DNA from: Panorpa germanica
Taxonomy: Eukaryota; Arthropoda; Insecta; Mecoptera; Panorpidae
NCBI GenBank assembly: GCA_963678705.1
Contig: OY783213.1
Location: 13,768,451-13,832,450, forward strand
Length of the DNA stretch: 64,000 bases
Direction of reading: 5' to 3'
Shown: positions 1,651 through 49,445 of the stretch, one piece after another
How positions within the stretch are numbered: position 1 is the stretch's first letter
Layout of the letters: each line of letters begins with the position of its first letter
The notes under the pieces: generated by a model
Seen by the model: the letters and a program-made list of their open reading frames with translations, nothing else
Told to the model about the DNA's origin: nothing
The model's database searches: none
Position numbers and translations under genes: made by a program

Positions 1651-2349
1651 TTGTGGATCTCACCTTCTTTGCATGTGGATTGCATTGCACTATGTCGACA
1701 TAGTGAAGTATTGGTGAAGGTTAAATTAAAAAGCTTGCTTTCATGATAACAAGTACTAATACGAAACAACTTCTAAACAGTAGTACGTTCCAGTAATAGA
1801 GAACGATTATGGTAAACGTACGTTGCAAATGTAGAAATTTTTCATTAAATCTACAGCTAATAAATTCTCAACGATAGAAATAACTTTTCTATGTCAACGT
1901 AAACTTTCTTGCATATTTCAAAAGCCAAGCTATAAATCAAAAGTACATATTATAAATATTTCGCTTATCTCAACATTAATTAAACTATAAACTTATTATA
2001 ACTTTCCTGTAAGTAAGGTCACACACACATCGTTGCACGCTAACCGACAGCTAATCTACTGGGGGTTGTACATTGCTTTAATTAATTTTATTCCTGCGGG
2101 AACAATCAATAAGTATTATTGTTTCTATAAGTGTATAGAAAACATTTTAAATAGTCTTGTAACCCATGACCTAATTTCTATAAAACTGTATAATATATAG
2201 TTGCCAGAGCCTCAAATGTTCACTTATTTTTTAATAAGGTTCATTTTTTACCCTTTATTCATTCGCCTTTCGGCTTTACAATCTACATTCTTAATACATT
2301 TCATATACTTCAACTTACAATTAAATTTACATTATTCTCAGCTTATTTA

Positions 2350-2949
2350 TTCTCCTGTTTTTTCTTTCCTTCTTTCCTTCACTTGCTGGCCTCCCTTTAA
2401 TAGCTGGCCAATATTCCTTTCGCTCGCTACTTTTTCCTTACACTCAAACTTAATGTGCTCCAGTGTTTCGTCCTCCGCTCCGCACACTCTACACTTTCTT
2501 TCCTCACTCTTTTCCCAGTATCTGTTTCCTTTTTCCTCATTTCCCAATCTAAACCTTGCTGTTCTTCTTATGTGTTTTATGTCTTTTTCTATAAGGTACT
2601 GAGGCACATTATTTTCACATAACCTTTTATATCTTTTATTGTAGTTACTTTTTTCTATTTTTCCCATTCTCTCCTGCTGTTGTATCTCCTTATCCCTTCT
2701 CCTTAGTTCCTCTTCCACACTTGCGCCTCCTTCTCTTCTCCTCTCTGCCTCCTCGACCGCCATTCCATTCCTTTCAAAGTACTCCTTTCTCTTTTTTGGA
2801 CCTCCTCCCCCCCCATTCTTTATGCTATCCTCTCTTATTTTCTTTAAAATTTTGCTTTCCGCTCTGGTCAATTTCTCCTCGTATTTTACTGCTCTTTCCC
2901 CTGTTTTAATTCGTATATTATCTTTTTTTATATTTTCATAACGTTTATT
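2350..2949 (-). pseudogene. LINE retrotransposon ORF2, C-terminal fragment
   Basis: A single open frame of about 200 codons reads from 2949 down to a stop at 2347. It is highly charged (runs of E, K and R) and holds the segment ARFRLGNEEKGNRYWEKS followed by CRVCGAEDETLEHIKFEC. This C-x2-C...H...C pattern is the zinc-knuckle-like C-terminal tail of reverse transcriptases from one group of insect non-LTR retrotransposons. The catalytic reverse transcriptase and endonuclease domains are missing, so this is a 5'-truncated, dead copy, though this part has stayed open and so may be fairly young. The family assignment is from memory of the motif; the truncation is seen directly. Confidence 0.75.
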
Positions 2950-5900
2950 TTAATCAAAAATTAAAAAACGACCCTTAAAAGTGAATGCACTAACCCATTG
3001 TTAATGCACGCTTGCAGAAACGTGGTTTTCAGCTCAAACAAAGAAAACTATTAAGAAATAATTTTTTATGAGTTTACTTATAAAGTTGACGAGTTACTTT
3101 CATATACTACAACATTGTAATAAGAAGAACTATTTTATTTACGATCTATCATTCAAAATAAATTTTACGGTGTCTTCAATAAAATTATTTCGTACAATGA
3201 AAATACAAAATAATGTTCAATTTGTTTCCACAGAACATTACCCAATATACCGCCCGATAAAACTGCTTGTTGTAGTTATAGAAAAGTTTACAAATATTAG
3301 AAAAAGTTTACAAATCTAACACCCTGCAGGTATGAATAGAAAAACTGTTGGAAAACTATTTTAATGATAAGTTTTTGTTGATTCAAACTTTGCTCTTTAC
3401 AACTGGTTTTACGACGATTATATTAGATACCATAGCTGCTTCAATACTTTGTAAGTTTTATTTATTCTCATATATGTAGGTTTATCTTTCAATATAGGAA
3501 TAATACACAAGTATATTTAATAACTATTTATTCATAAAACAAACTCTCTTGCCTTCATAGTATATAGCTCCCTCTCTCTTTCAAATCTCAATCGTATTCA
3601 TTCTCTGATGGTAATACTGATAAAGTTCATGGGAGCCACTTAGAACAAACACTCGCATTGCTTACATAACAACTAGCTTACAGTAAGATAACGATAATGC
3701 TCGGTATATATCTCTCTCTTTCAACCCATCAATGTACTGCTGATTGTAGGAGAGTCCACGCATAGGTAGAAGATATATTAAGTTGATTTAATATTCAAAA
3801 AATTTAATCCTCATTGTGTCTTAATAATCAGTAAAAGGGTAAGTGGTCCTTCTAATGATCTTCATGTATTCTAAGACTAACAGGATATCCCTAATAACTC
3901 ACCCTTCCTTGCCTTGTTAATTCAATTTGAATCAGCAGCTTTACTTGAGATAGGGGTTTCAAACTACGTTTGTTTTCGCTGGGTTGTTTGTAAGCACGTC
4001 CTTTAATTGACCATTTTGTGGGTAGATTAATAATAGATGTGCTATAAATATTGATGTTTCAATTAGGCACGAGTATAACCAATTCGTTCTTAGTCTTAGA
4101 CTTTTCCAAATTGGTTTACTCATTATTTATTTACAATTACAATTATGTAATTAACATACTATTTTCCTCGCTCAATTATATTATATATACTCGTAGTTAT
4201 GTTTTCTAGAACACGTCCTCTACCAGTATTTATATTTAACCAGTAGGGTCGTCCTACGTCACACAAAAGGTCACAATCTAGTTTATTTGATAGTTGTTTA
4301 CAACGAAACTTCATCGAGTGCACCGCTCAAATATTCATAATCTGCGATTCGTTTAGTAGGCAAGTAACACATGGAAACTACATCACCGTTCAGTTAACAA
4401 CCTTCGCAATTACACCCGGTTTACTTATACATTAGACGCTATCAAATCGCGCTTATTAAGAAAGTACAATTATTTAATATGTCATCCAGATTATATCTTT
4501 TGATGAAGAATTCTGTCCCCTTAAAATTATTCTAGCTAGGCTAGTCCGTCACTGGCGATAAGTAACAACTTTAAATTATCCAAGAACTTTATATTTTGTT
4601 ACTTTTTTAATTCATTATTTTTTAAAACCTTAAAATGTTATAAAAAATAAATTACTAAACTTTTTGTTATTTTTAAGAAGTTTCAACGTTTTTCTTTATT
4701 TTTATCCTATTTTATTTATTCAAGTTGATTATAATTACAATTACCGGATTAAAAAGCCATCAGTCTTAAACCTCTAGCGACACACCCTAAAGCGGAAATT
4801 ATTTTTATAAATATACAGAAAAGAAAACCTGGTTAGTTAGTTTTCCAAAAATATTGATCATTTTTAAAATTGTTTTGAGAATGTACACGACAATAACGCC
4901 AACTAATTTAAGAACTAATGGAGGCTATTTAAATAGAAATACATCTGGGTAGAAAATACTTTTGTACTGAAATTTTTACATTTACTTGCTTGCCACAAGC
5001 TGATTTCCAGGTTACATTATCTGCAAATTTAAATATTTTTATTTAAGATTATTTTGTTATAAAAATAAATTTTGTTTTGCTTTTTTTAATTTATAAATTG
5101 ACAGGCTACTTAGGACGTCGGTCCTTTTTTCGTCATTTACATTACACAATCAATATCTACAATACTATACGAGTCTTGAATGATTTCTCATATCACAGCT
5201 GGAACGTGCTTAAATTTCCTTATTTTCTATTTTAATATAACAATAAAAATCAATAGTTGAACATGTGGTTTTACTTACCATCGTGTCACTTCGTTCAGAG
5301 ACGTTTTTGTTCCATTTATGAGGAAAACAATAGAAAGAATAGAAACTGTATCAAACTCTCTTGGTCACATATGGTAAAATCCCCAGATCCTTTATAAACC
5401 AACTGTCCAATATCAACTGACACTCTTGGATACCCCGTAATGCATTAAACGTGTTCCACATTACTTTTTAAACACAAGCTATTTAATTCTGTACAAAGCA
5501 GCTTTTTCTTGTCTGTAATAGTGATAAATTGAAATACAGATTTAATATAACGTTGAGTTTTTTGCTACGAATAAATATCCCAATCGTTAATCTTGATAAA
5601 AACAAACTAGAAGAACAGTTCATGCTGTTTGTCTATTTTTTTTAATAAATCCCGGATTTATAGTGACTTGAATAGCATGTATATAACTACTAATATGAAA
5701 TCAATATGTTATTTGAATATTTGATCGATAATTTCTCGGAATTTGTAAAACCGGTCTATTTTTAGCTACTTGTTTTTCATAAGGCATATATTTAAAATTA
5801 ATATGAAGTAATACATTTGTTAATATAAATAAGTATTTATATTGTTTATTAATTTAACATATAATGCCTTTAGGCATTTCATTCTTCTGTCTTAAATTCA

Positions 5901-6192: not shown

Positions 6193-6958
6193 GTAATTCG
6201 TCGAACTGAATACGGAGTACTATAATCTTATGATCTTAATTACTTTTACGAAGGGAACATTTTGTTCTATTAGCTTACTGATCCAATCGATACGCATACA
6301 ATTGGATCAGTGTCGTACAGTTGTTTTTTTAACGCTTGGCTAAAACATTTGCACAGAGTTCATCTTAATACCTAAAGCATCTGAGCGAGTGCTTCCTGTA
6401 TGTAACTTGCCCTAACTAATAGTACTTAATGTCATATTAAAAACGTCATCACATAAATGATCAAATAAATTTTATTTTATAATCGCGAAAATTCTAAAAC
6501 GTTCTAGATAATAACGTTATTCTTATGTAATACGTTAGTTGAGCCCTTAAAACGTAATCCACCATTATACATTAAAAAGTATAAGCCCTTTTTTAAAAAA
6601 ATTTGCATAATAATATCTAAAAGATAAAAAATATAATGTTATATCCGTAAATATTTTCTGTAGCTTAACTAATATGTATTATTAATGAGATGGCGCAGTT
6701 CTTTATTTTCTTAAAAGACATTTCAATCTCTGAAATGTGAAACATTTCATAAAGAATGTATAACGTTGACAACATTATATTAAAAATGTATACAGTATCC
6801 CACATAAATCTTACATCCTCATAAAATTGCCCGAACATTCTATCTTAAATATTTAATTATTTTTACATACAAGGTTTTGTGTATACAGAATTTCAGATTC
6901 ACTTCTCTGATTTGGTTATAAGGGTAATCTATGTAACTACTCTATTTTAACTATTAAA

Positions 6959-6996
6959 TATAGAGCTTTATGTGTGAGCACACATAAAGCTCTATA
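6959..6996. repeat. Perfect 18-bp inverted repeat (hairpin)
   Basis: TATAGAGCTTTATGTGTG is followed after the two bases AG by its exact reverse complement. The arms are perfect and the loop is too small for a microRNA precursor. It may be the residue of a very short palindromic element. Confidence 0.6.
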
Positions 6997-8194
6997 AATG
7001 TTATAATATTTGTTTATATTCATTTATGTAAATTGCAATACTTGAATATTCTAAACTGTGGAAATAACAAACATACAAACACTATTAAATGAAATATTAC
7101 ATAAACCACCTACCCCTTTCCCTCCTTCCCCACGTTATTTACGTCTAAAGCCTAAGTAAACACAGCGACAATCTCCGTTCCTATAAAGTAGATCGACGTC
7201 TCATTATGCCGTTGTTTTCCTTAGTAGAAGTGTCTATATATCTCACACCCACTACTTTATATTCAGTATACTCGTATATTTATTCAACACATATGTAACA
7301 TTATTCCGTATTAAGTTTTATCTGCTGTGCACGTTTCTCTGCATGCTAATAATATTGTTCGTGAAAGCTCGCTGACAGAAGCATCCGGCGCGTCCACCAC
7401 CTGATGGGCACGATTCAACTCGACCCGGCTGATCCACCATTTGTTTTACTAATGAAACTATTTTACTTTCTAATATGGTCCAGGTGTCACTGTTGACATA
7501 TTAGTTACATACCATACACCATAGATGTGCTACATTGTTTCAGAACTGAATAATTCATCTGAAACTGAAAAATAATTACGTTTTTCTGCTAAATTGTAAA
7601 TAAAATTTCTAATTATTTTAATACTATTCGTATCTCAGATGATCTCTTATTATAATTAATTTTTAAATTTTAATATCACTGTTAGATATAATGAACGTGT
7701 TTTTACATATTTAAATAAGTAGTTATTACGATTTTTCAGTTTTATTTCATATAGTTATAAAAGTTTGATATTAATTACTACTGTAAAATGTTATTACACA
7801 GTCATTAGTTTTGGTTGTAACATGCTCAACTTTATGTTGACCAAGCAGACTGTCAAAGTCATAAAAACTTCCATAAATTAATCTATGTTGTAGCAGTAAA
7901 ACTTTTATCACAGTTTTTCATCCGTCTGGGAAATTTACTCATATTTCCATAGCATTTGAAATGTATCTAGTTTAGTGTTATAAAATATGTGGCCGAATTT
8001 TATTTGAAAGTGACTCATACTTGAAAATATTAAAGAAAATTTATTATGAAACTGTATTTATTATAAGATTAATTGCTTTTTTAAATTGATCATGTCGGAG
8101 TTTCTTATAAAACTAATTGATGAAACAAAATAACAGTTAAAAATGAGCTATTTAAATTCTTATTGTTGTTAAACGCATTTTACTAATTTTAATG

Positions 8195-39200: not shown

Positions 39201-40934
39201 ATGGAATGTGTAAAAGTCGCGCGCATATCAGGAGGAGCCAACATAAGGGTTGACATTAATAACTATTCAGCATTTTCTAACGTTTCTAGGTCATGGTGAA
39301 TCAAATGTTACCTTTCTAATCACTTGACATACTATAATATAAAAAAAACCCGAGAACAACACGAATTCTTATACATAGATTTTTAGGTTATTTTTTTTTT
39401 TTTTTGTAATATATTTTCCGAGAATCAAAATATTTAACGTGACTGTACAATGATGGTGGGGGGTTTTTATAGTTACCCATGTTAGTACAGAAATCAATAC
39501 GGAAACTCCGCTTCTACGATCTGGCATCCGTAAAATAACGTTACGTTTGCGTATTTTAAAATTATATGTCAAACGCCTGCGTATTGTATTCATTGTACTC
39601 GTTAATAATACTAATTAAAAATATTATATTAATTAATAACGAAGTTGTAAAAATATATTCATGTTTTTAAAAAGGGAATGAAGTTATATATTATAGGAAA
39701 TTGTTTTATTGAATAGATTGTACAGCGACGTGAATGTTTTAAGATTTATATGTAAAGTAGATCCTAATTATTACGTTAATCGAATATCATTTTAACAGTT
39801 CATTTAACCAACGCTTCATTAGCTAAATACTTCACGTTAATAATGTAGATTTATATAATAAAATATGATGGTATATTGATTCGAGTCTTCTTCTTCATCT
39901 TTCGAGAACTATTATTAACAAAAATCAATTTTGTTTAAATTATAAACTTAAGTAAATAAGAAAAGTACTGTACTTAAGTAAATCTTTTAAATTCTACAAA
40001 GTGCAAATTATATGCTTTATATATATATATATATTTGAAACTAAATAGAATGAAAATAGCAGTGACACATCCATACAAACAATTTGGACAAGAATCGTGT
40101 AAGATTCGTGCGAATCGTATTAGAATCGAATTAGAATCGTATAAGAATCGTAATAGAATCGTATAAGAATCGTAATAAATTCGTATAATTTATAGAAAAA
40201 TTGTTTCTAGGGATGTGTCACTACTAGGTATGACAAAGTCTTGATGTTATATTAATATACTCGAACAAAAACGTGCAAATCTCTCATACTAATTGGTAAA
40301 CTATCTAGTAAAATATATAACCAAATCCACTAACAACAGAGATTTATATTTTACATGACCAATAGTACACTCTTTGTGTAAAGCTAATTTCCATTTCAAT
40401 CATTAAAAAATTTACATAAATAGAACATAATATTTACATATGGGTCTAACATAAAGTTAATAAATTTACGCAAAATTGATTTATGTTATATTTTCAATAT
40501 ATTCAAAGCAATTTTAATTTAATTTGCCAGCGGTAAATATCAGAGGGCCTTTAATACTTAATTTAAAAATATACTTAACTAACCATACTATTATTACATT
40601 TTCATCCATTTCCTGTATCCTGTTTCCGGTACCTATTTCCTCTAAACAAACATCTTTACCCTATCAACCAACATCCGGCTTTATGCGCCCCACTTTCTGT
40701 AAAATTTAAAATTTCCTCTCCTGTGACTTTTATTTGGGGGTCACATCAACCCAAAAAAAATGACAACGTTGGTCTTCAACAGAAGAGGACTGGGAACGTG
40801 AATTGGAGGCCGAGCTTCAGGACTACGAGGTCGTCGCCGATGGTAACAGTGGAAACGGAAGTAGTGGAAATACAGGAGACAACTGGGAAAAAGACGTGGA
40901 TGACTTACTTGGTGATGATACGGATCTCAAGTGA
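18278..40934 (+). CDS. Sap47: Synapse-associated protein of 47 kDa (SYAP1/Sap47), 5' incomplete
   Basis: Five exons: 18278-18415, 26628-26767, 27629-27756, 31587-31727 and 40783-40934, with phases 0, 2, 1, 1 that join without a break into 232 residues plus stop. The first exon begins SLLGEFNKEQDAFIKG. A BSD domain follows (about residues 30-110): PPWVGCPNEESLKEECLSLS, then DRRNFVRAPP and IITEENFWRNYFYR with the diagnostic F-W pair. The acidic C-terminus holds SESEFVSDNF and EEDWERELEAELQDYEVVAD, as in SYAP1. The family is known from Drosophila synaptic terminals, where it affects plasticity, and mammalian SYAP1 is linked to Akt signalling. The exon with the start codon is not visible. Introns reach 9 kb. 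A polyadenylation hexamer AATAAA lies at 41490. Confidence 0.93.
18511..18815 (-). mobile_element. MITE, one end truncated
   Basis: It begins ATGCCGGTTTCACACCAAAG and matches, in reverse orientation, the element at 32510-32910, including GACAAGCGCAAATGTTCAC and TTTTCCTTTGATCTTACC. The far terminal repeat, about 75 bases, is missing. There is no transposase, so this is a nonautonomous element sitting in a Sap47 intron. Confidence 0.7.
20688..20830 (-). repeat. Dispersed repeat, copy 1
   Basis: The reverse complement reads GCTTGCTTGTTTACCC, CAGCAGCAGCGGTTCG, AACAGATAGGACTCTCGG and ends at TATATCTCTATGTA. The same order of blocks is present on the plus strand at 53287-53450 in a RASSF8 intron. 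No coding content. Confidence 0.6.
21386..21499. mobile_element. 114-bp palindromic MITE with TTA duplication
   Basis: The left arm CCGCCTTACAAATAAACC is matched at the right by GGTTTATTTGTAAGGYGG in reverse complement, and the arms continue inward through ACCAGGTATAAA. The element is flanked by TTA on both sides (21383-21385 and 21500-21502). A 3-bp TTA target duplication is typical of PIF/Harbinger elements, so I infer that superfamily. Confidence 0.65.
23861..23948 (+). repeat. Dispersed repeat, copy 1 of pair
   Basis: Contains TTTGTAGATAATGATATTG, TTTTTATTGTAGCTAG and AAAAAGTTATGAGC. A diverged copy in the same order and orientation lies at 34535-34622, in another Sap47 intron. Confidence 0.5.
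26768..27628 (+). other. Sap47 intron with a GC-richer block
   Basis: Positions about 27175-27400 are GC-richer than the surrounding intron and are open on both strands (27196-27429 plus, 27181-27366 minus). I recognise no domain. It looks like a young insertion of an unidentified repeat rather than an exon, because the flanking exons already join in phase. Confidence 0.5.
28999..29110 (+). repeat. SINE copy with internal deletion
   Basis: Starts AGACGACGCAGTGGACTAAA and resumes at CAAGTTAAATTGATTATA and ACATAATCATAAACTTATTA, shared with the copy at 52079. The B box region between them is lost. Confidence 0.5.
29471..29567. mobile_element. 97-bp MITE with terminal inverted repeats
   Basis: TTTATCGCAATGCAATTCAT at the left is matched by TGCGATAGTTTGCATTGCGA near the right end in reverse complement. 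The centre is unrelated and noncoding. Confidence 0.5.
30042..30088. repeat. 16-bp inverted repeat with 15-base loop
   Basis: AATTAGATGTCGTCAA is followed by its exact reverse complement. A third copy of GATGTCGTCA lies directly upstream (30031), suggesting local duplication. Confidence 0.55.
32510..32910 (+). mobile_element. 401-bp MITE, complete
   Basis: The ends are terminal inverted repeats: ATGACGGTTTCACACCCGAG at the left and, in reverse complement, ATGTCGGTTTCACACCAGAG at the right. The interior is noncoding. It is the complete relative of the inverted, truncated copy at 18511-18815. Confidence 0.75.
34535..34622 (+). repeat. Dispersed repeat, copy 2 of pair
   Basis: GATTTGTAGATAATAATATT, TTTTTATTGTAGCTTT and AAAAAGTTACAGGC correspond block by block to 23861-23948. 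It directly abuts the SINE tail at 34633. Confidence 0.5.
34633..34682 (+). repeat. SINE 3' tail fragment
   Basis: ATCGTCGGTGATAGGAAATA and GATCGATGTTAAATAAAT match the last 50 bases of the SINE at 8195-8401, including the TAAA tail. Confidence 0.5.
37283..37875 (+). repeat. Three spaced copies of an AGCT...AGCTAATT motif
   Basis: TTAGCTTACTACAAGCTAAT (37281), CTAGCTTGTCACAAGCTAAT (37360) and TTAGCTCACTACTAGCTAAT (37833) are variants of one motif; the first and third are followed by TCAAGGTTC- or CCAAGGTTC-like sequence. They look like remnants of an older repeat, not binding sites. Confidence 0.35.
40018..40034. repeat. (TA)n microsatellite
   Basis: About eight TA units, uninterrupted. Confidence 0.6.
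40091..40187 (+). repeat. AGAATCGTAATA-like minisatellite
   Basis: Seven to eight diverged units of 11-12 bases around GAATCGTATAAGAATCGTAA run head to tail, with the last units nearly identical. Confidence 0.7.
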
Positions 40935-43035
40935 ATATCTCATTTCACTATAATATTATTTATAAGCTAACATATGTCTAATGGTCAAATAAATACTCCA
41001 AATCTAATGTCAAACAAATGCTGTAAAGTACGGTTCAAATTTTATATTTTTTGAAATACATTCACTTTTTTTCACGGCTTATAAATTTTATTATTTAGTA
41101 TACATTCTAGGTTATGTTTTTTTGTATACCAACGTAATTTCATATATTTTGATTTGTAGTAATGGCATATTATAAGACTATAAGGCGTTATTCATCTCAA
41201 AAACGTTGTTTGAATAGATAAGATACAATTCTAAATGCTATAGTAAAAATTATGAAATGATTACATTTTTGAAAACTAGTAATAACGCCTGTAGTTAGTG
41301 TTACATAAAAATACAGATGTATCTCCTTTTTCCTAAACCAGTGCTGTCGTTTTTACATTTTTTTAAATATAAATATTCTTTTATAAATAATTATTTTGTA
41401 TTAATAATGAGCCAGCCATAATAGAAATAATAATAATAGTTATTTGAAATTGTTAATGTAAAATACTAATGTATTTATTACAAGAAGAAAATAAAACTTG
41501 TTCAGTACCTTTTCGAGTTGAATGTATAAATGCATGTATCAGAGATGAACAGGTGTTTCCGAGAAAATCAAGATTAAAGCTATTGAACAACAATGGCTCA
41601 TATATTTTATACATTTCATTTGAATCGGGACGAACGTCTTAATGTGAATGAAGATCTTGGATTTTGGGAAAGTTTAACAAGATGAGTTTAACTTCTATGC
41701 AGCATATTTTATTAGTAATTACTCAACCTTAAAAATTAACTTTAAAAAGAAAAGAATGGCCTCATGTATAATATATAATTGCAGATTGTAATAAATATTA
41801 TATAAAAAGATACTCCAGTAATATAAAAACATGTTGTTTATAAACTAATGTTATTTACTGTAAAACTGATATTACATTTTGGAAAACTTTTGTCTTTTCA
41901 TCTTCCAAACAATCAAAAGGAACATTTAAGTAAGCATTATTGTATTCGTCATATTTAATAAATCGTCAAAAAATTTGTGACAAAGTTGTACAAACATACA
42001 GACAAAATTTTGATTTGTGATTTCATCACAATTTATAGAAGAACAATCTTACTTATTTGTTTCCTTTAGGCTGATCTCTTAAGAGGTCTCTTGTACCGTA
42101 CAACTACTTATTGACATTATTAATCAATAAACCTAATGAAATCAATTACCACTCCAAAAAAATGACATTCCATGTTATAGGAATTATATAAACAAAAAAT
42201 CAAGTGTATTCTTAATATTTAAATGTGGTTCATCTAAATAACGCCTCAAAAATTAAATGTATATAAAGTTATAGCCTACCAAAATAAAAACTTATGTTGA
42301 AGCAATATTTAGAAATAAAAATTTATAAATTGGAATTTACTATATTTAAAATATATTTTAACGTTAAAATAGTTGCAATATATAAATATATTTTAATTTT
42401 TAAAATGTAATGTATATTTCTTTTTGTATATTTTAATTATTTAATTTTATTCGTTGTAACTATTTAATTAATATAAAATGTTAACGAACAATTGATGTAA
42501 TTGTTCATGTAGTAATATATTGTACTAAAGTGTATGTAAAAGTATTTAAAAAAAATCTAAAAAATAAATATCATTCAATTTAAAAATGTTGCATTTAATT
42601 ATTTTCTCACAAAAATAAGAGATGTATCTTGATAATATAACGTAAGGATTAGATCCTAGATAAGTAAAATTAAAATGTTCAGCTGTCTACATCATATTCT
42701 GGAAGTACTTTTTGCTAGATCATAAAAGAGAAAAACTTTGTTTTAAATTTAGTAAATTATAAAAATAGATAAATCCGTAATTAAAAAATGATTCTATCAA
42801 AGATTCTTAGTCTAGTAGCGACATCTATTAAGGAATAGCTAAAAATACAAGTGTGTTATTTGTTCAAAAGATGGCGCACCAATTTCATTACGCCTAGACA
42901 GTTTGCAACCTAATTTACACTCGTTCTTTTTGTAATTTAAGTAAATTGAAATTAAGTATTTGTGATGATGATTGACGAGAAAAGCACAAGTTATAAATAA
43001 ATAAAATGTAGTATTATAAAAGTTAAACACAAAGA
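40935..43035. other. Sap47 3' untranslated region and intergenic DNA
   Basis: AT-rich DNA with a candidate poly(A) signal AATAAA at 41490, about 555 bases after the stop. No other gene seen. Confidence 0.5.
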
Positions 43036-43060
43036 CGACAAATTTAACGACGTTTTTATT

Positions 43061-44204
43061 TTCATGGACATTTATAAAAAAATATTTAAAATTAATTTTC
43101 TTAAAAAAATTTGATGCAGTTATGTTCCTTATCTTCTAAAATAAGATACTGCTTCATTACATTTTAAATACCTACGCGATTCTGGCTTTCAAGCGACCTT
43201 TTTTATTTTCATGGACATTTTTAAAAAAAGATTAAAATCCATTTTCTTGAAAATTGTTGATGCAGTTAAGTTCCTTATGCTGTAAAATAAAAAACTGCAT
43301 CATTAGATTTTAAATACCTACGCGATTTTGGCTTTTAAGCGACCTTTTATATTTTCATGGACATTTTCTTCAAAAAGAAAAATTTACGTTTTCCTAAATT
43401 TTTTTGAAGCAGCTATATTCGCTATGCTCTAAAATAAAAAACTGCATCATTAGATTTTAAATACCTATGCGATTTTAGCTTTTAAGCGACCTTTTTTATT
43501 TTCATGGACATTTTCTTCAAAAAGAAAAATTTACGTTTTCCTAAAATTTTTTGATGCAGTTATGTTCGCTATGCTCTAAAATAAAAAACTGCATCATTAG
43601 ATTTTAAATACCTACGCGATTTTAGCTTTTAAGCGACCTTTCTTATTTTCATGGACATTTTCTTCAAAAAGAAAAACTTACGTTTTCCTAAATTTTTTTG
43701 AAGCAGTTATATTCGCTATGCTCTAAAATAAAAAACTGCATCATTAGATTTTAAATACCTACGCGATTTTAGCTTTTAAGCGACCTTTTTTATTTTCATG
43801 GACATTTTCTTCAAAAAGAAAAATTTACGTTTTCCTAATTTTTTTTGATGCAGTTATGTTCGCTATGCTCTAAAATAAATAACTGCATATTTAGATTTTA
43901 AATACCCACGCGATTTTAGCTTTTAAGCGACCTTTTTTATTTTCATGGACATTTTCTTCAAAAAGAAAAATTTACGTTTTCCTAAATTTTTTTGATGCAG
44001 TTATGTTCGCTATGCTCTAAAATAAAAAACTGCATCATTAGATTTTAAATACCTACGCGATTTTAGCTTTTAAACGACCTTTTTTATTTTCATGGACATT
44101 TTCTTCAAAAAGAAAAATTTACGTTTTCCTAATTTTTTTTGATGCAGTTATGTTCGCTATGCTCTAAAATAAAAAACTGCATCATTAGATTTTAAATATC
44201 TACG
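43061..44204 (+). repeat. Left satellite arm, eight 147-bp monomers
   Basis: Each unit runs from ATTTTCATGGACATTTTC through AAATTTACGTTTTCCTAA, TTGATGCAGTTATGTTCGC, AACTGCATCATTAGATTTTA and ACGCGATTTTAGC to AAGCGACC. The first two units are the most diverged; units 4-8 differ by only a few bases. The spacing is 147 bases in six of seven steps and 146 in one. Confidence 0.85.
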
Positions 44205-44700
44205 CAGGAACTCAAAAAATTGCATTGCTCTTAAAATCATAAAAGTGAACCTTTTCATCATTTTTAACAAGATTATAGTCTTCTTTCATTGCATACTCCG
44301 ATAAAAAGATTTAATATATTGATATATCATAAACTAAAATACTTATTTAAAAATGAATTATAAATTTGAAATCAGCATTTAAAATTAAGTTAAAATCCAT
44401 TATAAAATGACATATATTTTTCTTAAATTTTTATGAAAAGTAAGAAGAGTATAGTCTTCTTACTTTTCATAAAAATTGTTCGACTTTTTATGTCGATATC
44501 TCGTAAACCAAAAGGCTTATCTAAAAATTAATTACAAATTTGAAATCAGCATTAAAAATTATATAAAAAACCATTATAAAAATAACATATTTTCTTCTTC
44601 AGTTTTTCAATGAAAGAAGGCTATAATCTTGTTAAAAATGATGAAAAGGTTCACTTTTATGATTTTAAGAGCAATGCAATTTTTTGAGTTTCTGCGTAGA
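44202..44700. repeat. Centre of the foldback element
   Basis: An inner inverted pair (44202-44291 against 44608-44700, containing AAAGTGAACCTTTTCATC) continues the palindrome beyond the satellite arms. Inside it is a perfect 23-bp hairpin at 44426-44448/44455-44477 with the loop GTATAG. The intervening sequence is, unlike the rest, repeated directly: AAATTTGAAATCAGCAT occurs at 44362 and 44536, a 174-base step. Confidence 0.75.
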
Positions 44701-44701
44701 T

Positions 44702-45775
44702 ATTTAAAATCTAATGATGCAGTTTTTTATTTTAGAGCATAGCGAACATAACTACATCAAAAAAAATTAGGAAAACGTAAATTTTTCTTTTTGAAAAAAA
44801 TGTCCATGAAAATAAAAAAGGTCGTTTAAAAGCTAAAATCGCGTAGATATTTAAAATCTAATGATGCAGTTTTTTATTTTAGAGCATAGCGAACATAACT
44901 GCATCAAAAAAATTTAGGAAAACGTAAATTTTTCTTTTTGAAGAAAATGTCCATGAAAATAAAAAAGGTCGCTTAAAAGCTAAAATCGCGTAGGTATTTA
45001 AAATCTAATGATGCAGTTTTTTATTTTAGAGCATAGCGAATATAGCTGCTTCAAAAAAATTTAGGAAAACGTAAATTTTTCTTTTTGAAGAAAATGTCCA
45101 TGAAAATAAAAAAGGTCGCTTAAAAGCTAAAATCGCGTAGGTATTTAAAATCTAATGATGCAGTTTTTTATTTTAGAGCATAGCGAACATAACTGCATCA
45201 AAAAAAATTAGGAAAACGTAAATTTTTCTTTTTGAAGAAAATGTCCATGAAAATAAAAAAGGTCGTTTAAAAGCTAAAATCGCGTAAGTATTTAAAATCT
45301 AATGATGCAGTTTTTTATTTTAGAACATAACGAACATAACTGCATCAAATTATTCCAAAGAATCAAAAAAAATTTAAGAAAAAAAATGTCCATGAAAATA
45401 AAAAAGTTCGCATAAAAGCCAAAATCGCGTAGGTATTTAAAATATAATGATGCAGTTTTTTATTCTAGAGCATAAGAAACATAACTGCATCAAATTATTC
45501 CAAAGAATCAAAAAAAAAATTTAGAAAAAAAATGTCTATGGATTTCAAAAAGGTCGCATAAAAGCCAAATTCGCGTAGATATTTAAAATGTAATAATGCA
45601 GTTTTTTAGTTTACAGCAAAACGAACATAACTGCATCAAATTATTTCAAAGAATCAAAAAAAAAATTTTAGAAAAAAATGTCCATGAAAATAAAAAAGTT
45701 CGCATAAAAGCCAAAATCGCGTAGGTATTGAAAATCTAATGAAGTTTTTTTAGAACATAAGGAAAATAACTACAT
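44702..45775 (-). repeat. Right satellite arm, seven monomers
   Basis: The same monomer as the left arm in inverse orientation. Inner spacings are 147 bases, outer ones 145-146. The three outer units carry a variant segment (AAATTATTCCAAAGAATC) that is not obvious in the left arm, so the outer ends of the two arms are not simple mirror images. Confidence 0.8.
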
Positions 45776-45790
45776 CCAATCTTTTCTAAA

Positions 45791-47012
45791 ATATAGAAAT
45801 TTAATTTATAAAAAAATATCTATAACTTGAATAAGCTGCAAGTGATTTTAAACAATGTAATTTAGGTTGCCTGCTCCTCAGCTTAAAAATTTAACATATA
45901 CTTATTTAAACGGATCTATGAATCAGTGGTACATAATGTTTATTATTTACTTAACAGGTATCAGTTTAACGTTCATGAATATAAAGAACGTTCCAAAACA
46001 AAACAAAACATTAATTTTCAATACCGACGTAGCTGTTATAACCACACTAAACCTGTGTCCATCGTCTGATTAGAATTTTAGATCCCTATTTTTTAACTTA
46101 ACTAAAGTCCCATTAACATAAGGCGATTTTTCATAAACCTGTTTCTAAATTAGACTATTTATGCCCTCTGCATGGTATTGAACTTATTTTGCACTTTATG
46201 CAAGGTCCGCTACAAACTTTTGAGTAAACTTAAGTTCCTAATTTAGAAAATAATCTCTTAAAAAATTTTATACTTCAAATACAAATTTTCTAATAGTGTT
46301 AATTGAGTTGCATAAGTTCCTGGCGCAATAGAATTAATGTACCATCTGTTGAAGAAATATTGAACTTCAATTATTTTAAACTACTTAATAATAGATGTCA
46401 CCAGTAGGTTCATATTTTTAATAACCTAATTTTTACCGACATTTATCATAATTCAAAAATTCGTTTCTTTTATTAAATGAAAAAACGTTTTTAAAGTAAA
46501 ATTATTTGATTGTAACTTTTGAGCGTTGATTGTATTGATCATTATGTGTATTCTAATAGTCAAACACTTTATAAATTTATTAATTAATATTAATTCTCTA
46601 TAACTATAGTTGTCGCCTGACTGACAGTCAACTACTATAACAAGCTAACGAAATCTTAAATTAAATTGTTTGGGACTTATCTAAAGAAAATACATTTAAT
46701 AAATGTGCATCTTAATATGTGGGAGCACACAAACATTTAGGTTTAGTTATAAACATTGGTATAACAGTGTAATGTTTTATGTATTTAAGAATACAAATAT
46801 TTATATATACAGATGACAAATATAATAAATAAAATTTCAAACACCTTATTATAAATTAGTTTATATTTTTAGTTAATTATTTTAGAATATAAACAGTAGG
46901 TAGTAATAGTAATATACAAAATCTTAACTTATACAAATATCAATGAAGAAAACAAAAACAGTTTCGTTTGGATAACTTTTACAATGTGAACATTTTACAT
47001 TATGATTCTACT
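45791..47012. other. Intergenic DNA downstream of UNC50
   Basis: AT-rich with no recognised gene. It holds the 3' untranslated region of UNC50, read on the minus strand. The open frame at 45867-46073 has no recognisable content. Confidence 0.5.
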
Positions 47013-48116: not shown

Positions 48117-48608
48117 TTTTTTAACTATAATTTTTACTTGAATTTACAATAAATATTTTTTTCTTCGTTATACTAGAAGTAAACCTTTACGAATGTAATC
48201 ATTGTTATTATTATTTTTAGTCCATAAAAACACTGTCGATTTTCTAATATTGAATTAAAAAAACTAGTAATATCTACTACAACTGCTATGTTAACAATTA
48301 AATTTTCACTAGAGTCAACTAGAGTACTTGTCACTTTGACAAATATTTATTAGGTTAACTTATTTGTTGGATAGTTGGCCAACAGATGACGACCACAGCG
48401 TTCCGTGCAACATTTTTGGTAGACGTTATATATATTCATTTGGAAAAAGAAAACTTTTCATGACTGTCATGTTTTTGTTGTCATTATCGCATTGTTAGGT
48501 TAAATAATTAAAAGAACCTCAATAAAGTTTCTAGCACTTTCTAGTTTAATAATTTACACAGTATTTTAATTTATATTGCAAGTGAGAGTGATAGGAAATA
48601 TATCTACA
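48117..48608. promoter_or_regulatory. Shared intergenic promoter of UNC50 and PSMG2
   Basis: Only 492 bases separate the two divergent start codons, so both promoters must lie here unless 5' exons are further away. I see no TATA box at a fixed distance from either start and no DRE element. The interval includes GGCCAACAGATGACG and two TTAGGTTAA-like stretches (about 48350 and 48495), which are candidates only. Confidence 0.5.
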
Positions 48609-49445
48609 ATGATCGAACTATTCAAGAATGTCAACATCAAAGGTTATACATTTATTATGCCCTGCGTTTCTGTTGGAAATATATCTCAACTTTCCGCTGA
48701 TATATTTATTATGACACTAAATATGAAAAAGGCAGGAAAAGTTTGGCACCGATCTATTATGCCCGCTATTGGTTCCAATCCGTATAAATCTTCCAACTCT
48801 GATTCATTATTAACTTCTGAAGCTGAGTTATACTACAGTGACGAGAAGAAGCTTGTTATACTTCAAATAAGATCATCTATAATGGGACGTGGTAAAAATG
48901 ATTTCTTCAAAGAATTGTCTACTTTCATAAAAAGTAACGAAATTAATAAATTAATTCTTCTTACAAGTGATTTTGCACATACATTAAAAGATCATTGTGA
49001 GAAAATGTACTTTGATCAACTATCTTTCAAATTTCTTGCAAGTTCAAATATTAATGAAAAATATGCTGATGACTTTAAGGAATTGCGCTGGACTCCCTGT
49101 GAACCGGAGAAGGTAATTAAAATAAACGAAGACCATGCTGAACAACTACATAACTTCGGAGTGGCCGATTTTGAAAAGCCAGCGGAATATCGTACAATTA
49201 AATATTTTGCACCGGGTTATGGAAAGAAATTATACGATATTTGTGTTGCACAAAACATACCTACTGTTTTACTTGTTAAATATTGTGCAGAAGGAGACAA
49301 TAGACCTGACGCAATAAATACAACAAGGGATCTAAATAAATGGATTCATGTTCTTAATGAAGATGAAACAGGTCAGATTGCTATGAAATTTCCTGAATGC
49401 TGGAAATACGTGTTTGGTGGTGGACCACCAAAAGCCATGTTTTAA
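48609..49445 (+). CDS. PSMG2: Proteasome assembly chaperone 2
   Basis: A single-exon gene of 278 residues (human PSMG2 264). The start ATG at 48609 gives MIELFKNVNIKGYTFIMP, which aligns with the family start; the frame is open 11 codons further upstream but has no earlier ATG. Family landmarks are MPCVSVGNISQLSADIFI, the GSNPY motif, LQIRSSI, GYGKKLYDIC, VKYCAEGDNRPDA, and PECWKYVFGGGPPKAMF at the end. PAC2 pairs with PAC1 to hold and orient alpha subunits during assembly of the 20S proteasome ring in the cytosol. The absence of introns contrasts with the multi-exon neighbours, but there is no poly(A) tail or frame damage, so it is a functional gene and not a retrocopy by these signs. Confidence 0.95.
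   Translation: MIELFKNVNIKGYTFIMPCVSVGNISQLSADIFIMTLNMKKAGKVWHRSIMPAIGSNPYKSSNSDSLLTSEAELYYSDEKKLVILQIRSSIMGRGKNDFFKELSTFIKSNEINKLILLTSDFAHTLKDHCEKMYFDQLSFKFLASSNINEKYADDFKELRWTPCEPEKVIKINEDHAEQLHNFGVADFEKPAEYRTIKYFAPGYGKKLYDICVAQNIPTVLLVKYCAEGDNRPDAINTTRDLNKWIHVLNEDETGQIAMKFPECWKYVFGGGPPKAMF

Follow-up and report, generated by a model that had tools for sequence, protein, structure and literature searches.

A dispersed palindromic repeat family of foldback-like architecture in the genome of Panorpa germanica

A palindrome lying in a 64,000-nucleotide stretch of Panorpa germanica chromosome 10 (hereafter the window; C10:13768451-13832450, with C10 for chromosome 10 and C21 for the X, 47,989,005 bases) is probably a foldback-type DNA element that is non-autonomous and belongs to a set of several hundred related copies in this genome. 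In the mapped loci, two tandem arrays face a core, K, across fixed junctions, flanks vary from locus to locus, monomers are homogenised within loci and K variants are regional. The element is foldback-like by architecture. The kind is already known, and the family looks new.

Comparison of the window with itself, which the initial annotation had proposed as a dot plot, was made by BLAST and returned an inverted match of positions 43084-45805 onto themselves (85%, 2736 columns). An inverted-repeat search gave arms of 780 nt (43545-44324 and 44575-45354, 95% complementary), and TRF detected a 147-bp period on both sides (left, 43110-44205, 7.5 copies, 93% matches; right, 44694-45742, 7.2 copies, 90% matches). 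The annotated foldback palindrome of 147-bp tandem monomers was confirmed. With a monomer profile (nhmmer), each side of the core resolved into seven full monomers and a 67-bp part; the eight-against-seven count given initially holds only if the left partial monomer is included and the right one is not. The arrays (43111-44205 and 44694-45776) face each other around a 488-bp core, K (44206-44693), and together span 43111-45776, which corrects the ends of 43040-45790 given before (Table 1).

Inner monomers were the most alike, as had been annotated: identity across arms reached 93-99% for the six inner left and four inner right monomers, against 82-89% for the monomers at the outer ends (one on the left, two on the right). 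A conserved inverted pair, TGATGCAGTT / AACTGCATCA, is present in the monomer, and a binding site there is a guess; a single monomer folded no better than its own shuffles (z -1.4). The core contains a pair of direct repeats at a spacing of 174 bp. As single-stranded DNA it folded strongly, at -120.1 kcal/mol, whereas 100 shuffled sequences averaged -39.8 (z -19.3). Among 22 copies of K (L015 left out), mean pairwise identity was 98.7 and 99.1% for the two arms and 94.4% for the loop. Arms and core contained no ORF of at least 50 aa, and a protein-coding element was dropped on this ground.

Table 1. Features of the palindrome and its surroundings in the window (positions counted from the first nucleotide of the window; L numbers denote other loci)
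Feature	Position	Strand	Evidence or remarks
Outer module T, left, probably terminal	42784-42921	+	Inverted partner 46295-46434 (67%); like modules flank other loci; T1 motif enriched beside arrays
Composition of left T	42784-42921	+	Inverted motif pair TAGCGACATCTATT ... AGATGGCGC, then CGCCTAGACAGTTTGCAAC
Flanking domain X, common to other copies	42921-43024	+	89.5% to L028 flank; parts in L011, L017, L019
Decayed 29-bp monomer piece outside left arm	43046-43074	+	TRF, nhmmer
Left arm, seven full 147-bp A monomers	43111-44138	+	TRF, nhmmer
Partial A monomer, 67 bp, core junction	44139-44205	+	nhmmer; similar part on both sides of K in mapped loci
Core K, 488 bp	44206-44693	+	Fold, alignment and ORF checks
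K outer arms, near-invariant	~44206-44289 and ~44610-44693		Alignment of K copies
K central hairpin, 26-nt arms	44426-44477
Partial A monomer, 67 bp, core junction	44694-44760	-	nhmmer
Right arm, seven full A monomers, outer three diverged	44763-45776	-	TRF, nhmmer, monomer comparison
Flanking domain F2, common to L012, L014, L024	45782-45913	-	81-85%
Outer module T, right, probably terminal	46295-46434	-	Inverted partner of 42784-42921

The family was followed through the P. germanica genome (464,208,970 bases, one haplotype of one species). The species has n = 20 + X(O) (PMC3833739), and the assembly, from a male, comprises 464.2 Mb in 20 autosomes and the X at 52-fold HiFi coverage (PMC11464959). 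When three mismatches were allowed, a 52-base K pattern matched 493 places (247 forward, 246 reverse; reversed control, 0), spread over autosomes and the X, and an exact 69-base pattern matched 64 places, six of them on the X. Distinct loci are fewer than 493, since nine pairs among 100 listed K places lay less than 1 kb apart; extrapolated to all 493 places, this proportion would give about 450 loci. The presence of arrays is established for the mapped loci, which are fewer than the K places.

Twenty-one loci (the window and 20 relatives of about 10 kb each) were mapped with nhmmer, and all 21 displayed the order array, ~67 bp, K, ~67 bp, inverted array; this layout was partly selected, as the relatives were those that resembled the whole palindrome most closely. 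Facing arrays were also present in 8 of 8 loci picked by K alone (the window, five overlapping the 20 relatives and two new ones). All 331 scored monomers of the 21 loci pointed at K. Arms held 4-16 full monomers and turned at K, a structure other than a long head-to-tail satellite array. Additional partial K copies were found in L020, L026 and L034. The genome search advised in the initial annotation thus returned many loci with the same inverted layout, in agreement with the Foldback architecture suggested there. A one-off inversion was ruled out by the 493 K places and the repeated layout, and a misassembled satellite array by the 52-fold HiFi assembly, the different flanks and the many loci.

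Flank similarity among copies mostly ended within about 1.5 kb of the array edge (farther out in L023, L024 and L027), and at greater distance copies had only separate repeats in common. Ordered pieces, P, X and F2, recurred in the flanks of other loci. Segmental duplication of whole neighbourhoods was dropped because the flank stretches in common are short, and flipping of K relative to domain P is not claimed because P can occupy both sides (L028). A second inverted layer, whose ~88-bp monomer shows a relationship to the K arm, was nested around the palindrome of L027 (C9:4830700-4840600, at 1846-3665 and 6193-7535). An 11/22-bp minisatellite (AAGAATCGTAT) was common to window positions 40090-40188 and to positions 1-176 of L015 on chromosome 3.

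Monomers were most similar within arms (91.8% between neighbours, 89.9% between others), and monomers of equal rank in the two arms of one locus (89.8%) were more similar than those of different rank across the same arms (88.3%) or those of equal rank in other loci (87.8% on the same chromosome, 86.1% on others). When all monomers of other loci were included, identity was 86.8% within and 85.3% between chromosomes. Cross-arm identity at equal rank decreased from 92% at rank 0, the innermost, to 85% at rank 7; this gradient partly reflects general decay, since inner ranks were also nearer to other loci (0.87 against 0.84 for outer ranks). Between loci, monomers of equal rank (ranks 0-4) were as similar on opposite sides of K (0.8724) as on the same side (0.8715), which indicates that arms keep no lasting side identity. 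Such patterns support an exchange of sequence between the arms of one locus, as was initially suggested. The exchange may take place through conversion, the route named initially, or through inversion of the core, and these data fit either.

K copies form regional, chromosome-biased sub-families. Each similarity list comprised the best 40 scored places, query included. With the K of a C9 locus as query, C9 occupied 16 of the top 18 places (0.24 to 18.2 Mb), the remaining two being one place on C18 and one on C3, at 98%, and with a C3 query the top 11 of 40 were all on C3 (5.2-9.6 Mb). The bias was weaker for the window K, for which C10 held ranks 1-3 with mixed chromosomes below, and for a C2 query, for which only the top two were on C2 and two further C2 copies stood at ranks 10 and 14, amid other copies of 94%. 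The nearest K neighbour was on the same chromosome for 19 of 23 copies (4.2 expected; maximum of 17 in 100,000 shuffles). Mean K identity within against between chromosomes was not significantly different for all 23 copies (p 0.14), owing to a single outlier, L015, whose K is only 82% like the rest; without L015 the contrast gave p 5e-5.

For the 151 K loci collected among the matches listed, clustering beyond a uniform distribution was detected on 8 of 11 chromosomes (p <0.05, uncorrected) and was absent on C9, C11 and the X. Among the matches listed, C5, C6 and C15 carried no K. C9 copies near 5-6 Mb matched the consensus exactly and were absent among the best 40 places of the C9 query, so that C9 appears, from these comparisons, to be shared by two K lineages; "regional" is for this reason a better label than "chromosome-specific".

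The ends assigned initially were probably too short, as an outer domain seems to be part of the element. An inverted pair of modules, T (67%, E about 3e-12), lies outside them, and the palindrome with both T modules measures about 3.65 kb. In many flanks T consists of two TAGYGMCATCTATT-like motifs in inverted orientation, with CGCCTGATCAGYATGCAAC after them. Hits of the T1 motif were concentrated beside arrays: of 37 hits, 34 lay in the 63 kb that extend up to 1.5 kb from array edges, three in ~136 kb farther out and none in 62.6 kb of array. A second T pattern (up to four mismatches) behaved alike, with 28 of 34 hits within 1.5 kb. In the 64-kb window, GCGMCATCTRTT with up to one mismatch gave three matches, all at the palindrome flanks (0.38 expected; 1 of 100 shuffles reached three). 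Common ends and target-site duplications had both been proposed as signs to look for at other loci. The T1 motif occurred within 1.5 kb of arrays in 15 of 21 loci and was absent there in 6; around T, where ends are decayed, no exact terminus could be fixed and no target-site duplication was recognised by eye. For the T modules of the window, folding was no stronger than in shuffled sequences (z 0.0 and -1.1).

T probably belongs to the element as its end; it may instead be a separate repeat. Genome-wide, one form of T matched 287 places (control, 0). Among 100 listed, 26 lay within 5 kb of a collected K locus (0.33 expected under uniform placing) and 74 had no collected K within that distance, a number to be read as an upper bound because only 151 K loci were collected. 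The outer unit of L027 was commonest on C6 (18 of 41 matches, with 40 of 168 candidates scored), where T-like modules adjoin other repeats; as K was not seen there, T or its neighbours may exist on their own. Of 31 exact T-module places, 11 were on the X (2.9-8.9 Mb and 31.8-43.6 Mb). All of these were more than 5 kb away from the K loci collected, of which this chromosome contributed only six, and the same outer module may serve another array family there. About 2.1 kb from the right T module, the window also contained an uninterrupted 289-aa ORF (48576-49445, + strand) with a PAC2 domain (E 8e-10), which, judged by this domain, is perhaps the gene for proteasome assembly chaperone 2.

A search for possible transposase sources returned a single genome match to a MULE transposase (C12:4779183), more than 1 Mb from the nearest K collected on C12. 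P-type transposases were common (150 matches scored of 241 candidates), many of them equal in score and with an open frame about 910-914 aa long, on C18, C19, C20, C21, C4, C9, C12 and others; these look like traces of a P-superfamily transposon recently active in the genome. Among the 52 P-type places checked and the MULE place, the nearest was 12.6 kb from a collected K. A Galileo-like P-type helper is conceivable for the K family, to which no tie was seen. Elsewhere in the genome, 19 COX1 matches were found outside the mitochondrial contig (C249, 16,386 bases), on C16, C1, C3, C21, C5 and others, most with in-frame TGA and including one pair about 104 kb apart on C5; these are probably nuclear copies of mitochondrial DNA.

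As a foldback-type DNA element, each copy would be composed, from the outside in, of T, a variable flank (P, X, F2), the 147-bp array, the 67-bp part, the K arms and a non-coding middle, so that each long terminal inverted repeat would have the array for its outer part and the K arms for its inner domain. Copies would have been moved by a transposase from elsewhere, with T as the end of the element. Arrays would lengthen and shorten through unequal exchange, and conversion or recombination inside the foldback would keep the arms alike, with loss and decay of monomers at the outer edge. New copies would mostly land or convert close to their source.

Outer decay with a homogeneous centre is also typical of satellite arrays, which speaks against a transposon. 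The palindromes could be a dispersed satellite, its units seeded by recombination or reintegrated circular DNA, perhaps beside existing T, and homogenised locally. The decaying outer monomers, the regional sub-families seen with the C3 query (top 11 of 40 scored) and the C9 query (16 of the top 18), the occurrence of T away from collected K loci and the finding of neither a transposase link nor a target-site duplication are all in its favour. Seeding of this type would, however, have to account for the constant junctions and for an inverted symmetry kept in every mapped locus, for flank pieces common to copies in the same order, and for C9-type K on C3 and C18 at 98%, which reads as discrete interchromosomal moves. 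We consider this origin unlikely, though it is the strongest competitor of the foldback element.

Selection could instead keep the arms complementary, if they were transcribed through K into hairpins yielding endo-siRNA or piRNA. The inverted orientation of all 331 monomers, the higher identity of K arms relative to the loop and the strong fold of single-stranded K agree with such hairpin-RNA loci. Arm exchange alone nevertheless explains the complementarity, positions 42000-47000 had no Rfam match up to E 0.1 (for which reason a known RNA family was dropped), and hundreds of copies exceed what is known of described single-locus hairpin RNAs, so that we hold this explanation to be improbable. 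It is more doubtful still that the palindromes have a host function as marks of chromosome regions, for example in homologue pairing during achiasmate male meiosis. Male meiosis in Panorpidae is reported to lack chiasmata (PMC3833739), and the regional sub-families (strong with C9 and C3 queries, weaker with the window and C2), the same-chromosome nearest neighbours (19 of 23) and the zones on 8 of 11 chromosomes tested would fit. Local spread, however, gives the same pattern without any function, two K lineages appear on C9, C9-type copies occur on C3 and C18, and C5, C6 and C15 lack K among the matches listed. Equally far-fetched is a chromosome-region barcode, locally homogenised, bounded by inverted T modules whose AGATGGCGC core may be close to the fly CTCF motif, and selected for homologue recognition or domain bounding in crossover-free male meiosis.

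The foldback element, our preferred reading, has precedents in Drosophila. The FB element possesses inverted arms of tandem repeats in variable number, as does the Panorpa element, and is set apart by description, its repeat length and sequence differing from those of the Panorpa monomer. The closest system is Tetris of Drosophila virilis and D. americana, described as apparently non-autonomous, with repeats also present in satellite-like arrays (PMC4079207). Its layout there consists of an external flanking domain, then an outer domain of tandem repeats, an inner domain and a middle that apparently codes for nothing. The Panorpa element agrees with this description domain by domain (PMC4079207). 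Compared by description only, the monomer is ~220 bp in variable number in Tetris and 147 bp with 4-16 full copies per arm in Panorpa. Tetris is reported with three complete copies and target-site duplications of 8-10 bp, whereas several hundred K places and no such duplication were found in Panorpa, which, unlike Tetris as described, displays near-invariant core arms and regional sub-families.

Galileo, of the P superfamily, shares the foldback habit and has nearly complete copies with a P-type transposase (PMC3573991); no transposase was linked to the Panorpa element. The repeat number of Galileo varies, exchange takes place among copies, the longest repeats occur in copies without a transposase ORF, and its tandem repeats are described as ~210 bp, in up to three copies and in one sub-family only (PMC3573991). 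The 1.688 satellite of Drosophila likewise forms short euchromatic arrays, enriched on one chromosome and with chromosome-linked variants (PMC7642928); palindromes around a core are not part of the portion of that account available to us, whereas Panorpa arms face one core in every mapped locus. A limited literature search found no published description of such a Panorpa repeat. The terms "satellite" and "repeat" do not appear in the accessible part of the main text of the P. germanica genome note (PMC11464959), nor "satellite" and "inverted" in that of the P. cognata genome paper (PMC10715201).

If the palindromes are transposons, Mecoptera would join the hosts of foldback elements with satellite-like arm monomers, and the hundreds of copies assembled from long reads would make arm conversion, array turnover and regional spread measurable. 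Galileo, itself foldback-like, generated inversions in Drosophila buzzatii (PMC3573991; PMC2775673), and chromosome numbers vary among Panorpa species (PMC3833739). By analogy with the inversions made by Galileo, the Panorpa family is a candidate cause of Panorpa rearrangements.
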